Assembly: GCA_947176335.1 (NCBI GenBank)
Contig: CAMWQE010000003.1
Location: forward strand, 1-38,087
Direction: 5' to 3'
Length of the DNA: 38,087 bases
From: an uncultured Porphyromonadaceae bacterium
Lineage (GTDB): Bacteria > Bacteroidota > Bacteroidia > Bacteroidales > Muribaculaceae
The first letter of the stretch is position 1; each line of letters starts with the position of its first letter. Under the pieces are notes generated by a model that made no database searches, had not been told where the DNA came from, and saw nothing but the letters and a program-made list of their open reading frames with translations. Positions 20,056 through 26,972 of this stretch are shown here, piece by piece. The position numbers and the translations under genes are program-made.

Positions 20056-21759
20056 ATGAAAGCAAGGCATATCATACTATTCCTCTTTATCTGCACGATT
20101 GCCGCGTGCACTACCCGCCATGATCCGAGGGTGGAATCACTATTTTCACTTGCCGAATCAGTGCCAGAAGCCGCTCTTGACTCCATCGACGCACTTGATT
20201 CACTCCACTTATCTTCTACAGACAGGATGCTGCTGCGCCTCGCCACAATCAAGGCTACCGACAAGGCAGACAGGCAACTGCCGGGCGACACCGCAATACT
20301 GCCGCTTGTCGACTACTACTCCTCGCACGAAACAGAACGCTACTACCCTACCGCGCTCTACTATGCCGGACGGATATACTCGGAATCGGGAGACTATCCC
20401 ACCGCACTCCGATACTTCCAGGACGCACTCGACTTACTGCCCGAAAACACGCCGGACCTCAATCTCCGGGCGGCTGCACTCAGCCAAACGGCTGCTATAC
20501 TCGCCAATCTGAGACTCTTTGACCAAGCTGAACCGTACTTCACTGAGGCATTGGAGATTGACCGACAAATGCGAGATACAATCAATATGATTTATGACCT
20601 TGAGAACCTTGCTAACATCACACTCAGAAATGGAGATTGCTATACAGCTTTATATCTGTTTCTATCTGCTGACAGCCTTACATCAAAGAAATTTCCGGCA
20701 AATACTCCTTATTCTAAGTCTAACATTGCATACGCCTATTATAAAAGCGGTGATATAAACTCTGCCTTAACCGCTGTCAAAGAATCACTTATTCCATCAA
20801 ATACAAAAGACCTGAATATCATCTATTCACAAGCAGCAACCATTTACTATAATGCGGGGTTATATGACAGTACTTACCAGTATGCAAGTAAATTGATAGG
20901 TTTGGGAAAGGACTCAAATAAAAGACTTGGCTACTATTACCTCATCCAACCAGAATTATCTGATTTCATACCGCATGATTCGATAAATAGTTATATGAAA
21001 AATTATAATGTCAATACTGAAATTTTTCTTAGCAAAAATTCAAATCAAGCTGCATTAATTCAAAATTCATATTACAACTACGCCACACATGAATTAAAAC
21101 GAATCTCTGCAGAAAAAAGCAAGAACAAGTTTCTTGTAATCGCTCTTATGCTTGCTATTATTTTATTATCACTTATAGTTGTCACACTGTTTGTTTCAAA
21201 CAGAAGCCACAAACGTAAACTGAGATTAACCGAAGCACTCAACAAAATAAGAGAACTGGAAAAAACAATTTCAGAGCAAACTATGAGCAACAAACTGAGC
21301 CCAGAACCTATACCAATAGATGTAACCGATTTGGATTCCACATCCGTAATCAGAGATTCTTTACGCAAACAATTGATAGATGCAGCAAAACTATCTAATC
21401 ATAAATATGTGATTCCGGAAGTAATATATACTTCATCTGAGTATTCAAAAGTCATAGATTTAATTCACTCTAATAAGAAAATCACTGAAGCTGTATTATG
21501 GGATAGTCTTGAAGATCTCACTAATAAGGCTTTTCCCAAATATAAAGATAATCTTTTATTGCTTTATGGAAAAACACCTCGTATCGAAGATATGAGAACA
21601 ATCCTGCTGATTAAATTGGGATGCCGTCCATCAGAACTTCAGATACTTCTCGGACTGGCAAAAGGCTCTGTGTCATCAAGAAGAGCCGAGATTTCCAAGC
21701 GCCTTTTAGGCGAATTATATGAACTGAAGACTGTAGACGCTGCAATACGCTTGTTATAA
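20056..21759 (+). CDS. membrane-spanning TPR regulator: lipoprotein-type signal, periplasmic TPRs, one TM helix, coiled coil and cytoplasmic HTH-like C-terminus
   Basis: MKARHIILFLFICTIAAC lipobox; TPR repeats (ALYYAGRIYSESGDYPTALRYFQDALDLLP); TM FLVIALMLAIILLSLIVVTLFV; C-terminus MRTILLIKLGCRPSELQILLGLAKGSVSSRRAEISKRLLG resembles LuxR-like HTHs at the end of similar Bacteroidales TPR proteins. Confidence 0.75.
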   Translation: MKARHIILFLFICTIAACTTRHDPRVESLFSLAESVPEAALDSIDALDSLHLSSTDRMLLRLATIKATDKADRQLPGDTAILPLVDYYSSHETERYYPTALYYAGRIYSESGDYPTALRYFQDALDLLPENTPDLNLRAAALSQTAAILANLRLFDQAEPYFTEALEIDRQMRDTINMIYDLENLANITLRNGDCYTALYLFLSADSLTSKKFPANTPYSKSNIAYAYYKSGDINSALTAVKESLIPSNTKDLNIIYSQAATIYYNAGLYDSTYQYASKLIGLGKDSNKRLGYYYLIQPELSDFIPHDSINSYMKNYNVNTEIFLSKNSNQAALIQNSYYNYATHELKRISAEKSKNKFLVIALMLAIILLSLIVVTLFVSNRSHKRKLRLTEALNKIRELEKTISEQTMSNKLSPEPIPIDVTDLDSTSVIRDSLRKQLIDAAKLSNHKYVIPEVIYTSSEYSKVIDLIHSNKKITEAVLWDSLEDLTNKAFPKYKDNLLLLYGKTPRIEDMRTILLIKLGCRPSELQILLGLAKGSVSSRRAEISKRLLGELYELKTVDAAIRLL

Positions 21760-21775
21760 CCATATTACGCTACTT

Positions 21776-21795
21776 TTCCGCACTTTTTCCGCACT
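21776..21795 (+). repeat. 20-bp direct repeat copy 1 (TTCCGCACTTTTTCCGCACT)
   Basis: Internal tandem CCGCAC-TTTTT-CCGCAC with 11-bp period; identical copy at 21952-21971. Confidence 0.9.
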
Positions 21796-21859
21796 ATATT
21801 CAACCGGATTTTGACCTATCAAAAAGCCGATTATATAAACATGGATTATTGCCATGACA

Positions 21860-21878
21860 ATATCGGCGCCACCGATAT
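21860..21878. repeat. inverted repeat ATATCGG-CGCCA-CCGATAT
   Basis: Perfect 7-bp arms with a 5-bp spacer in the intergenic region upstream of the small secreted protein gene. Confidence 0.75.
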
Positions 21879-21951
21879 CAGCGCCTAACATACTATTGAT
21901 TAACAAATAACTAAAGGATAACATCCACCCTTAGATGCCCTTCTAATATAA

Positions 21952-21971
21952 TTCCGCACTTTTTCCGCACT
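21952..21971 (+). repeat. 20-bp direct repeat copy 2 (TTCCGCACTTTTTCCGCACT)
   Basis: Identical to 21776-21795; ends 8 bp before the -33 TTGG element. Confidence 0.9.
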
Positions 21972-21978
21972 CAAATGC

Positions 21979-22009
21979 TTGGTATCGCTGATACCTGATT
22001 GTACCTTTG
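21979..22009 (+). promoter_or_regulatory. promoter with embedded palindrome GGTATC-GCT-GATACC
   Basis: TTG (21979-21981), N20, TACCTTTG (22002-22009); perfect 6-bp inverted repeat at 21981-21995 inside the spacer. Confidence 0.65.
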
Positions 22010-22405: not shown

Positions 22406-22447
22406 TTATTTCCGGACAATTACAGGAATATCTCTCTATCTTGTCAG

Positions 22448-22514
22448 GGATGGGGAAAAGGAATTGAGCTGATTTCTCGTGCCAATGTTAAATCAAGGTA
22501 CCTTTTCCCCATCC
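22448..22514 (+). repeat. long intergenic hairpin (14-bp perfect stem, 39-nt loop)
   Basis: GGATGGGGAAAAGG (22448-22461) and CCTTTTCCCCATCC (22501-22514); nested GATTT/AAATC pairing possible in the loop. Confidence 0.75.
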
Positions 22515-22598
22515 TGTTTCATCAAGTCCCTTAAAAAATAAAACAGTTGGGGCGCACCGCGTTCAACATCATGAATCAAAAATAAACAAATATATTAT

Positions 22599-24719
22599 AT
22601 GAAAATTACCCCCATCGCAGGAATTGCATTCGCACTTGCACTCGCAGGCTGCTCCGATGCAATCAATGAGCCGGAAGCACCGCAAAACCTCCCGGACTCA
22701 CGGTCCGTGGAGATTGCCGACACTACCTATAAATATGCCTACTACTATGACGACCGCGTAGAGGTGCCAATTGATGAATCAAAAAAGTATGTGATTGTCG
22801 AGGAGACGGTTGCAGACATTGCCGTTGCCGCGCCGGCAAAAGCACCGACCCGTTATGCCGGATACATAGTTGACGCCGCAGAACTACTCAAATCCGGCAA
22901 CACCTCAATAATGGCAGCCTCCGGAAACAATTCACCAATCGTTGCTATCGAAGATGTGACAGCTCACGGCACTCCGCTCAACAATTTCATATATGTGGGG
23001 CTTAAAAATGAATCCGACCTGCCTGTGCTTGAAAGGCTCGCCAAGAAAATAGGATGCATTGTACACGGCTCAATTTTAGACCACCCGAAATGGATAAAAC
23101 TGGAAACCGGCATAAACAGCGCCATGACTTCACTCCCCGCAGCAGCATACCTTTATGAAAACGGGGACTTCCAGTTCGTTGACCCCGGATTTGAGATTCA
23201 ATATGAAAGTCTTGCAAGCACCACACCTTCAGATCCTTATTTCAGCCAGCAGTGGAATTTGACTGGCGAATACGGCATAAATATCCTCCCTGCATGGGCT
23301 ATTTCTAAAGGGTCTCCTGATATAACTTTGGCTATCTATGACACGGGTGTAGTTAATATCTCAGACGAATTTACAGGAAGATTCACACAATTCTACTACG
23401 ATAACAATTTAACAATCTCAAATCCACATGGAACACAAGTCGCAGCGGTCGCAGCTGCATCCCATAATATGTCCTATATTGCAGGAGTCGCTCCTAATGC
23501 TAGACTAATGAATCTTAATTGGACATACGGTGGATATACACGTTCTGCAGAAGAGATTGCAGAGGGTTTTATATTATCTTATAAAAATGGAGCTGATATA
23601 ATAAATTGCTCATGGGGAGCATCGGCGCCTATCCAGAATCAAATTTTGGTAGAAGAAGCTTGCAAGGAAGCGATAATATTGGGTCGCAATGGTAAAGGAT
23701 GTATAGTAGTTTTCGCTGCCGGTAATAGTGATACATATGGAATCCAATATCCAGCAAGAAACATTCACGACGCAATAACTGTAGGTTCAACTAATACTTC
23801 TGGTATACGAAAAGGAACGTCATACGGTCCTCAAATGACAGTCTCAGCCCCAGGACATGAAATTCCTACCACACCAAATGAGAAAGGGGAATGTATTAAT
23901 TCTGGCACCTCCTATGCCGCACCCCAAGTCTCAGGGCTTGCGGCGCTTATTCTCAGCATACGCCCGGAGCTCACGGCGGCACAGGTAAAGCAGCTGATTA
24001 TTGAAACTGCATCCCGCTCCACACATAGCGACGAGTACGGTTGGGGTATTATAAATGCCGGATATGCTATGCAGGCTGCAAATCAGGACTATGCGATTTC
24101 ATGTCCTTCTGCTGGAGTAATCTCTCCAAATGATGGGAAATTGACATTTACCTTGTCTAACGTACCGAGGGGGGCAACTGTAAGCTGGTCAAGCAAATTG
24201 GCATCGCAGAAACTTAATTCCTCAAACTCCTCAGCTACGTTTTTCTATCCCTCTATCGGAGCTGGGTATGAAACAGTATCAGCTACTGTATCATATCTGG
24301 GCAAAACAAAAGAAGTTACATACCAATGCTATCTTACTTTAAGTACTGTGGTAAATTCAATTAATATTCTGGAAGACTATGACTGGTTAGGAGCTAACCA
24401 AATACATCTTTTTGCTGACTGTTCTAAAGAAAATGCACCGATTGAATGGAAAATAACAAGCAGTAATGGGTGCAATTTCCAACTTGTTGAATTTCCTCTT
24501 GCTGGAGATGCCAGCTTTATGAGTAATCCTAACGCATATATTACGCTTCAATATGGTGATCCTATGACACCTTTGACTTCAATACCGGAGGGAGCCTACT
24601 GTGAAATAACAGCAGAAGTGAATGAGCCGTATGGTGTGTGGCATCGTTGCACTCTCCGCTGGACAAATCTTTGGAACGGATATCAGTGGATTCTTGAGGA
24701 TAATGGTTTCCTCCGATAA
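22599..24719 (+). CDS. S8 family (subtilisin-like) serine peptidase lipoprotein with C-terminal accessory domains
   Basis: Lipobox LALAGCSD; catalytic triad blocks LAIYDTGV (Asp), NPHGTQVAAVAAA (His), NSGTSYAAPQVSGLAALIL (Ser); oxyanion VVFAAGNSD. Confidence 0.93.
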   Translation: MKITPIAGIAFALALAGCSDAINEPEAPQNLPDSRSVEIADTTYKYAYYYDDRVEVPIDESKKYVIVEETVADIAVAAPAKAPTRYAGYIVDAAELLKSGNTSIMAASGNNSPIVAIEDVTAHGTPLNNFIYVGLKNESDLPVLERLAKKIGCIVHGSILDHPKWIKLETGINSAMTSLPAAAYLYENGDFQFVDPGFEIQYESLASTTPSDPYFSQQWNLTGEYGINILPAWAISKGSPDITLAIYDTGVVNISDEFTGRFTQFYYDNNLTISNPHGTQVAAVAAASHNMSYIAGVAPNARLMNLNWTYGGYTRSAEEIAEGFILSYKNGADIINCSWGASAPIQNQILVEEACKEAIILGRNGKGCIVVFAAGNSDTYGIQYPARNIHDAITVGSTNTSGIRKGTSYGPQMTVSAPGHEIPTTPNEKGECINSGTSYAAPQVSGLAALILSIRPELTAAQVKQLIIETASRSTHSDEYGWGIINAGYAMQAANQDYAISCPSAGVISPNDGKLTFTLSNVPRGATVSWSSKLASQKLNSSNSSATFFYPSIGAGYETVSATVSYLGKTKEVTYQCYLTLSTVVNSINILEDYDWLGANQIHLFADCSKENAPIEWKITSSNGCNFQLVEFPLAGDASFMSNPNAYITLQYGDPMTPLTSIPEGAYCEITAEVNEPYGVWHRCTLRWTNLWNGYQWILEDNGFLR

Positions 24720-24773: not shown

Positions 24774-25457
24774 ATGAATAAAATCCTCCTCGGCTTCACC
24801 GCACTTTTCGCCGTTACCCTTTTCAGCGCCTGTTCAGCAGACGACAGCTTCCTCACAGATGATGAGATTAATCAGTTGGACAAAGAAACATCCTCGAAAT
24901 TTGTAGGCTTAAACTCCCTATATGGAAATTTTTCAGAACAACTTGAATACCCAGATAATGTGACCAACTATGCCATTATAATCCGTAGCAAAAAAGAGAT
25001 GGAAGACTATGGTTTGGTAGGCGGTGAAATTGTAAATGACACTACCTCATATACTATTACTGATGATAACACTATTATCAAAAATAATATAAAACCCTTT
25101 GATGATCCTTCCCGTCCAACAAAACTTATTGATTATTATAAGGATATAAATTGGGATAAACAAAGTCTTGTGGTATTAACATGTTATAATTCATCTATTT
25201 GCCGCTATATTGCTAATCTTGATGGAAGTATATATCATAAAAAAGGAAAATATTATGTAGTGATAAAGCCTTTAGTACAGACTTATCAAATCTGCTCACA
25301 GGCTCTTTACAGGGATGGTGCTGCATTTGTTGTAAACACTCCAAACCTCAAGAAAAAAGATTTGGTCATACAAATTAATGCAAAAGTATCCATCATGAAT
25401 CCTAAAACATTTAAATTAGAAATACAGGATATTTCTAAACCTCTTGAATTCAAATAA
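24774..25457 (+). CDS. tandem lipoprotein paralog 1
   Basis: 227 aa; lipobox TLFSACSADDS; about half of the sequence shared with copies 2 and 3. Confidence 0.85.
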   Translation: MNKILLGFTALFAVTLFSACSADDSFLTDDEINQLDKETSSKFVGLNSLYGNFSEQLEYPDNVTNYAIIIRSKKEMEDYGLVGGEIVNDTTSYTITDDNTIIKNNIKPFDDPSRPTKLIDYYKDINWDKQSLVVLTCYNSSICRYIANLDGSIYHKKGKYYVVIKPLVQTYQICSQALYRDGAAFVVNTPNLKKKDLVIQINAKVSIMNPKTFKLEIQDISKPLEFK

Positions 25458-25481
25458 ATACTCCCTTCCCTATCCCCCTGC

Positions 25482-25512
25482 GGGCGTGCCGGATTTGGAT
25501 TCCGGTACGCCC
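25482..25512 (+). terminator. intergenic hairpin between lipoprotein copies 1 and 2 (no U-tract)
   Basis: GGGCGTGCCGGA-TTTGGAT-TCCGGTACGCCC, 12-bp stem with one G-U pair; followed by CACATTATAAC rather than a T-run. Confidence 0.5.
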
Positions 25513-25845
25513 CACATTATAACAGAATAATTTTGCAAAGAAAACCATAAAACCAAACAGATATGAATAAAATCCTCCTCGGCTTGACCGCACTTTTCGC
25601 CGTTACCCTTTTCAGCGCCTGTTCAGCAGATGACAGCTTCCTCACAGATGATGAGATTAATCAGTTGGACAAAGAGACATCATCTAAATTTATAGGAATA
25701 AACGCTTTAAGTGGCAATTTTTCTGAAGAATATAATCATATAGAGATCAACTACGCTATTATATTCCATAGCAAGAAAGAATTAGAAGAATACGGATTAT
25801 CCGGTAACATAGTAAATGATACAACATCATATACTATTAATGATA
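25482..25845 (+). repeat. 364-bp perfect direct repeat, copy A
   Basis: By eye, base-identical to 26241-26604 (offset 759); spans hairpin, -7 box, 5' UTR and first ~94 codons. Confidence 0.85.
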
Positions 25846-26216
25846 ATAATTATGTGTCTCAAAACTTTCACTTACGCACTACACTTAGCGAGTATTATAA
25901 GGATATAAATTGGGACAAACAAAGTCTTGTCGTATTAACATGCTATAATTCGGACGTCTGCCGCCATATTGTAAACCTTGATGGAAGCATGTATCATAAA
26001 AAAGGAAAATATTATGTGGTGATAAAGACTTTCGTCCAGAAAAATTTCATCTGCTTACAATCGACTTACAGGGATGGTGCTGCATTTGTTGTAAACACTC
26101 CAAACCTTAAGAAAAAGGATTTGGTCATACAAGTCAATGCAAAAGTATCCATCATGAATCCTGAAACATTTAAATGGGAAATACAGGATATTTCCAAACC
26201 TCTTGACTTCAAATAA
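25563..26216 (+). CDS. tandem lipoprotein paralog 2
   Basis: 217 aa; identical N-terminal half to copy 3, C-terminal part closest to copy 1. Confidence 0.85.
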   Translation: MNKILLGLTALFAVTLFSACSADDSFLTDDEINQLDKETSSKFIGINALSGNFSEEYNHIEINYAIIFHSKKELEEYGLSGNIVNDTTSYTINDNNYVSQNFHLRTTLSEYYKDINWDKQSLVVLTCYNSDVCRHIVNLDGSMYHKKGKYYVVIKTFVQKNFICLQSTYRDGAAFVVNTPNLKKKDLVIQVNAKVSIMNPETFKWEIQDISKPLDFK

Positions 26217-26240
26217 ATACTCCCTTCCCTATTCCCCATC

Positions 26241-26271
26241 GGGCGTGCCGGATTTGGATTCCGGTACGCCC
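26241..26271 (+). terminator. intergenic hairpin between lipoprotein copies 2 and 3 (no U-tract)
   Basis: Same GGGCGTGCCGGA-TTTGGAT-TCCGGTACGCCC stem-loop as at 25482. Confidence 0.5.
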
Positions 26272-26604
26272 CACATTATAACAGAATAATTTTGCAAAGA
26301 AAACCATAAAACCAAACAGATATGAATAAAATCCTCCTCGGCTTGACCGCACTTTTCGCCGTTACCCTTTTCAGCGCCTGTTCAGCAGATGACAGCTTCC
26401 TCACAGATGATGAGATTAATCAGTTGGACAAAGAGACATCATCTAAATTTATAGGAATAAACGCTTTAAGTGGCAATTTTTCTGAAGAATATAATCATAT
26501 AGAGATCAACTACGCTATTATATTCCATAGCAAGAAAGAATTAGAAGAATACGGATTATCCGGTAACATAGTAAATGATACAACATCATATACTATTAAT
26601 GATA
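26241..26604 (+). repeat. 364-bp perfect direct repeat, copy B
   Basis: Base-identical by eye to 25482-25845. Confidence 0.85.
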
Positions 26605-26972
26605 TTAATTATGTGTCTCAAAATTTTTACAATATGATGACACTGAGCGAGTACTATAAGGATATTAATTGGGATAAACAAAGTCTTGTTGTAATAACCT
26701 GTGAATATTTTACAACAAATCATACACTTATAAACTTTGACGGAAGTATATATCACAAAAAAGGAAAGTACTATATATTAATGAATCCTTTGGTTCAGAC
26801 CGGACTTATCCCCATGCAAGCTGTTGATAGAAATGGTGCCGCATTTGTTGTAAACACTCCAAATCTCAAGAAAAAAGATTTGGTCATACAAGTCAATGCG
26901 AAAGTATCTGTCATGGGTAACCCACATAAATTTGAAATCCGGGATATTTCTAAACCTCTTGACTTCAAATAA
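26322..26972 (+). CDS. tandem lipoprotein paralog 3
   Basis: 216 aa; lipobox TLFSACSADDS; diverges from copy 2 after NDI/NDN-NYVSQNF. Confidence 0.85.
   Translation: MNKILLGLTALFAVTLFSACSADDSFLTDDEINQLDKETSSKFIGINALSGNFSEEYNHIEINYAIIFHSKKELEEYGLSGNIVNDTTSYTINDINYVSQNFYNMMTLSEYYKDINWDKQSLVVITCEYFTTNHTLINFDGSIYHKKGKYYILMNPLVQTGLIPMQAVDRNGAAFVVNTPNLKKKDLVIQVNAKVSVMGNPHKFEIRDISKPLDFK

Follow-up and report, generated by a model that had tools for sequence, protein, structure and literature searches.

A duplicated 20-bp DNA element in front of a gene for a small secreted protein very probably serves as the docking site for a membrane-spanning regulator encoded next to it. The element lies in a 38,087-nucleotide stretch of DNA from an uncultured Porphyromonadaceae bacterium (Muribaculaceae); this whole analyzed stretch is referred to below as the window. 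The arrangement very probably represents a family-wide design, in which dozens of regulators in related bacteria would each have a short tandem DNA address before a small secreted-protein gene. From the sequences, we give a probability of about 0.8 to the view that the operator is private to the adjacent TPR-TM-HTH protein, is bound by it head-to-tail, and activates the downstream gene. The features of the locus, with their basis in brackets, are as follows.

20056 to 21759, forward strand: presumed regulator gene (TPR match, hydropathy, and fold of the last 150 aa)
21307 to 21756, forward strand: codons of the regulator's C-terminal 150 aa, predicted HTH with the recognition helix ..KGSVSSRRAEISKRLLG.. 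(AlphaFold2)
21776 to 21795, forward strand: putative distal operator, with CCGCAC half-sites at 21778 and 21789, spaced by 11 bp (sequence; relatives share the position relative to the stop codon)
21796 to 21951, no strand: 156-bp spacer between the operators, containing the palindrome at 21860-21878 (sequence, genus search, shuffles)
21952 to 21971, forward strand: putative proximal operator, with CCGCAC half-sites at 21954 and 21965, spaced by 11 bp (31 bp from the end of the 7-mer core to the -7 element)
21979 to 21981, forward strand: -33 element TTG (sequence; consensus in PMC7366714)
22002 to 22009, forward strand: -7 element TACCTTTG, TAnnTTTG type (sequence; consensus in PMC7366714)
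22034 to 22405, forward strand: presumed target gene for a small secreted protein of 123 aa, DUF3244-like family (alignment, profile, fold)
22599 to 24719, forward strand: S8 subtilase gene (Pfam; 193-bp gap after the small gene)

The 20-mer TTCCGCACTTTTTCCGCACT occurs as two exact copies 176 bp apart, and each copy contains CCGCAC twice with a spacing of 11 bp, at the very coordinates that a first-pass annotation of this DNA had reported. When the 274-bp intergenic region was shuffled 2000 times by dinucleotides, no exact 20-bp repeat arose, and the duplication is not due to chance. The data are MAGs, and the window genome as searched comprises 2.09 Mb and is 78% complete. It contains no third copy of the 20-mer with up to two mismatches and a single further match at three mismatches. 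The pattern CCGCAC-N5-CCGCAC, whose abundance the first-pass annotation had named as a point to check, occurs three times in this genome, and two of these occurrences are the copies at the window promoter. A broader regulon in the window genome was rejected on the basis of the missing near-copies at two mismatches; among the CCGCAC-N3-8-CCGCAC matches, the one on contig C92 was examined and is described below. Rfam gave no element in the window.

The distal copy begins 17 nt past the stop codon of the presumed regulator gene. The open reading frame of this gene has 615 codons and runs from 19912, with the likely start at the ATG at 20056, and the N-terminus of its product carries a lipobox-like signal (IAAC). 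From hydropathy, Pfam, and fold analyses, the protein is predicted to have exported TPRs, a cytoplasmic HTH, and between them a single TM segment that lies about 208 residues from the C-terminus. A PF17874 (TPR_MalT) match in the protein is weak and below the cut-off. By hydropathy, 95 of the 96 full-length family proteins have an internal TM segment, and the predicted topology places their TPRs outside the membrane. AlphaFold2 models the last 150 aa of the regulator with a mean pLDDT of 94.6, a confident model in which the C-terminal domain probably folds as an HTH. In a Foldseek search of the PDB, made with a four-helix HTH fold in view, the neighbors of this domain are mostly of NarL/LuxR type (VraR, RcsB) at weak scores (E 0.27 or worse); the VraR DNA-binding domain has a TM of 0.67 by target length in the same weak search. 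By profile, the window domain matches no HTH family and a search of the PDB returned nothing. For 64 members of the regulator family, GerE was absent from the 25 matched families that were listed, beyond which 12 more families each matched a single member.

We propose that this protein is a membrane-spanning one-component regulator whose exported TPR part would sense a signal. Its cytoplasmic HTH domains would bind as a head-to-tail pair to tandem half-sites that are spaced by one helical turn and so share a face of the DNA, and the distal pair would be a second binding site of the same regulator. Autoregulation through CCGCAC was considered and rejected, because no CCGCAC lies near the regulator start and family regulators show no upstream excess of period-11 repeats.

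The same arrangement recurs across the family. An HTH-domain profile was run against 226 same-family genomes, nearly all of them with a completeness of 90% or more, and detected the regulator in 54. The set analyzed comprised 116 distinct regulator loci. In the typical unit, about 110-200 bp separate the regulator gene from a gene for a small secreted protein. Exact direct repeats with at least 7 non-trivial positions were counted in the gap between the regulator and the next gene. A repeat of period 11 is present in 65 of the 116 gaps, as compared to 0.35 expected from shuffles. Period 10 was found at 9 loci and period 12 at 8. A repeat with a period of 10-12 bp is present at 76 of the 116 loci and in 55 of 83 regulator clusters that share less than 60% HTH identity. 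Most other periods occur at 0-4 loci; periods 20, 22, and 30 are slightly in excess, which suggests further repeat copies. The period-11 repeat is specific to the regulator-target gap: it appears in 1 of 112 other intergenic regions at the same loci, in 3 of 97 stretches of 300 bp upstream of the regulator ORFs, and in 1 of 115 mostly coding stretches. An exact 10-12 bp repeat is absent from 40 of the 116 gaps, and a looser repeat score applied to these 40 gave no period-11 excess. Outside the family, a DUF3244-type gene also comes after distantly related regulators in two genomes from another family of the order (G333 and G402). Read by eye, their loci (L190 and L194) have TGTCAC/TGTCAA and GTGTGAA/GTGTAAA repeats 11 bp apart. 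This similar layout in distant relatives implies that the tandem-operator design may be older than the family.

The half-sites differ between regulators and follow their DNA-binding domains. They include CCGCAC, CCGTAC, CCGTAA, CCGCTC, CGAAC, TGAAC, and GCACAC, among others. Regulators whose HTHs are more nearly identical have more similar half-sites (Mantel r=0.32, p=0.0005). The association survives the removal of TPR identity, whereas the reverse does not hold (partial r 0.22 for the HTH vs 0.05 for the TPR), and it persists among representatives of less than 60% identity (r=0.19, p=0.0004). Among such representatives, the sequence SRR in the recognition helix goes with a CCG half-site (16 of 19, vs 6 of 36 without SRR, p=1.5e-6). 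These p values describe associations among related sequences, in which the tree is accounted for only through the use of representatives. Paralogues within one genome mostly have different half-sites. Each regulator of the family has its own half-site, and each unit would therefore be a largely private, locally wired switch. These results bear on whether the neighboring protein is the reader at all. The element could instead be read by another factor that is common before small secreted-protein genes; binding by the neighbor is deduced from sequence, and the half-sites do share a loose common form, with a CCG, CGA, or TGA core followed by A/C and T-runs in between. Against this, the half-sites covary with the neighboring HTH and differ between paralogues of one genome, and the repeat is specific to the gap beside the regulator; we regard a common factor as highly improbable. 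The first-pass annotation had named the upstream TPR-HTH protein as the candidate 'ligand' of the element, and its role as the predicted binder is strengthened by this co-occurrence in the family and by the regulator-specific half-sites.

Conservation among close relatives agrees with the assignment to the neighboring regulator. Four relatives of the window protein keep CCGCAC half-sites, whose positions relative to the start codon are roughly -98, -88, and -68. One of the four is on contig C92 of the window genome itself, where a second such unit (L179) combines CCGCAC half-sites spaced by 10 and 20 bp with a serpin gene that follows the small one. Since this paralogue shares the CCGCAC half-site at 10-bp spacing, the window site may not be fully private, and cross-talk of the C92 unit with the window regulator is possible. 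Both in the window genome and in another genome, G190, the full operator lies at its own locus and nowhere else. In genome G089, the complete inverted operator module of the regulator there recurs at four places outside any regulator locus that the search detected, and some family regulators may therefore act beyond the neighboring gene. These extra modules (L216-L219, at C13:29407, C21:3869, C77:6250, and C6:47445) adjoin long repeat-rich stretches without a clear gene, with unit repeats of 19-95 nt at L216. At the C13 site, TATCTTTA lies 32 bp from the end of the site and faces the repeat-rich stretch. Two other extra sites have, by eye, apparently the same promoter on the opposite strand.

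The position of the operators relative to the promoter points to activation. A binding site that lies upstream of the -33 element at a near-constant distance and does not overlap it is typical of activators. TAnnTTTG together with TTTG is the consensus of the primary sigma factor (PMC7366714). Among the 57 family promoters with a recognizable -7 element, the distance from the end of the proximal pair to TAnnTTTG is 30-33 bp in 44, and it is 31 bp in the window. The second copy of the window element lies directly upstream of the TTG, as had been noted before, at a gap of 7 bp and not the 8 bp given then. The proximal pair, just upstream of -33, would recruit RNA polymerase to the promoter of the small DUF3244-like gene. 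Among 75 family loci, a second pair is inverted in 29, direct in 7, and absent in 39, which have a single pair only. The window has a direct second pair and not the commoner inverted two-pair layout, and in its small clade the half-sites all point forward. The presence of two operators at one promoter, and of a second inverted pair upstream in those 29 loci, could also be taken as a sign of repression, in which the membrane-held regulator blocks or loops the promoter through both pairs until a signal releases it. Against this stand the near-constant location of the proximal pair upstream of the -33 element, and not over it, and the large share of loci with a single pair, so that repression by the adjacent regulator is unlikely. 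The earlier suggestion of two activator-type tandem sites fits well with the family co-occurrence, the fixed spacing to the -7 element, and the half-sites conserved in the four relatives.

Two perfect palindromes, GGTATC-GCT-GATACC (21981-21995) and ATATCGG-CGCCA-CCGATAT (21860-21878), are present exactly where the first-pass annotation had placed them. When the same intergenic region is shuffled, however, one or more perfect inverted repeats turn up in 37% of cases for arms of at least 6 and in 12.5% for arms of at least 7. Neither palindrome is conserved in relatives of the window locus, and a palindrome in the promoter spacer was found in 5 of the 57 family promoters (1.3 expected), a weak excess at most. 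Being near chance and unconserved, the palindromes leave the earlier proposal of a repressor operator unsupported, and they were rejected as operators. A control region in which the activator pairs loop over 176 bp and a repressor sits on the palindrome at 21981-21995 can draw on the existence of both palindromes and both 20-mer copies. This model is very unlikely, given the palindrome statistics and the relatives that do without the 176-bp separation. In those relatives the same distal half-sites are merely 20-30 bp from the proximal one and the 156-bp spacer is missing, and the separation is thus peculiar to the window locus. The spacer itself (21796-21951) has no match in 33 other genomes of the genus. 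This result led to the rejection of mobile or repeated DNA as its source, and it implies that the 176-bp separation is a local feature and not a conserved distance, possibly resulting from an insertion.

A narrower form of the preferred explanation, compatible with it, is that only the proximal pair works and that an insertion or duplication left the distal pair, the spacer, and the palindromes behind as passive remnants. The spacer restricted to this one genome among those examined in the genus and the near-chance palindromes are in its favor. However, the distal half-sites of the window keep both the CCGCAC sequence and the distance from the stop codon seen in the four relatives, which argues for an old, retained site. 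A proximal-only operator is possible, if somewhat doubtful.

The genes behind the operator suggest what such a regulator might control. The gene after the regulator encodes 85-150 aa in 79 of the 116 loci, and the 123-aa window protein aligns with these products at 41-58% identity to the nearest. Among 62 aligned family members, 8 match PF11589 (DUF3244), with a best value of 7.9e-9. The window protein itself has no Pfam match to PF11589; in a fold search, the DUF3244 structure 3d33 is its second match (E 0.089, probability 0.96). The S8 subtilase is possibly part of the same controlled locus, and recruitment of RNA polymerase might perhaps extend to it. In 64 scanned genes following the small protein gene, the families found were radical-SAM (16), Spi/C10 propeptide (9), C10 peptidase (7), Porph_ging of the GLPGLI type (6), serpin (4), and S8 (1, in the window). 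The radical-SAM members would be peptide maturases. From these families we infer that the regulators head loci for secreted peptides and proteases. Several other features were observed in these regions. A long inverted repeat, CAGGGATGGGGAAAAGG ... CCTTTTCCCCATCCTG, was seen by eye between the small gene and the S8 gene (about 22437-22522) and is possibly a terminator or processing site. Behind the S8 protease (24774-26972), three closely similar genes in tandem encode secreted proteins of 216-227 aa that resemble lipoproteins and match no Pfam family. At two family loci (L071 and L119), the third gene, directly behind the DUF3244-like gene, encodes a short cysteine-rich protein with a GG motif, and these proteins are probably RiPP precursors.

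A literature search found no published description of this regulator-operator pairing, nor any paper on membrane regulators that combine TPRs and an HTH in this way. Only unrelated papers contained the motif, and DUF3244 came up only in tables or passing mentions. If the pairing is correct, dozens of uncharacterized membrane regulators would gain a readable DNA address, and their target promoters would become predictable from sequence. It would also link these regulators to secreted peptide, protease, and serpin loci. The rule relating HTH to half-site becomes directly testable, and natural regulator/operator pairs could be used in gut bacteria as parts that are insulated from one another.

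Parts of the design resemble several known systems. MalT-type activators join a TPR-like sensor to a LuxR-like HTH, a layout that the window regulator may share, as the weak sub-threshold PF17874 match recalls. MalT is a cytoplasmic ATPase, whereas no ATPase domain was matched in the window regulator. ToxR and CadC have N-terminal OmpR-type winged HTHs. As in ToxR, TcpP, and CadC (PMC10269533), a single membrane-spanning protein here would combine an outside sensor with a cytoplasmic DNA-binding part, and the title of a reference in that paper reports that ToxR recognizes a direct repeat. Unlike in ToxR and CadC, the HTH is C-terminal, the outside part consists of TPRs and apparently carries a lipid, and every regulator of the family comes with an operator of its own. 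The likeness to the SARP/SARP-LAL regulators lies in the operator, with its 11-bp direct repeats near -35, and not in the protein family. The operator of PimR from Streptomyces natalensis has heptameric direct repeats with 4-bp spacers, giving an 11-bp period, and a second operator has a 10-bp period (PMC5930380). PimR acts in the manner proposed for the window regulator, as an activator that binds two or three repeats as at least two monomers and exerts local control of a biosynthetic locus (PMC5930380). PimR binds through its SARP domain, whereas the window HTH, which appears NarL/LuxR-like, is C-terminal and predicted to be membrane-tethered, with a half-site that varies per regulator. The SARP hallmark, an OmpR-like winged HTH with a BTAD domain, gave no Pfam match.

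The remaining two comparisons concern peptides. TPR genes beside RiPP clusters of Bacteroidales have been suggested to be pheromone-type regulators, and the parts of that report available to us describe no operator or DUF3244-like partner (PMC10352776). The RRNPP receptors of Firmicutes (PMC10075063) are also TPR and HTH proteins encoded beside a gene for a small exported product, with peptide and protease functions nearby. They are intracellular and sense peptides there, whereas the TPRs of the present family are predicted to lie outside the membrane. A more speculative and rather unlikely extension is that Bacteroidales-type bacteria have a large class of trans-envelope sensing switches, so far undescribed, to which the window unit belongs and which would be the Gram-negative equivalent of the RRNPP systems. 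In such a switch the exported TPR part would sense the small secreted protein or a modified peptide of its own locus, and the membrane-held HTH would fire the private operator. If this is true, many insulated copies with different DNA addresses could coexist in one genome.
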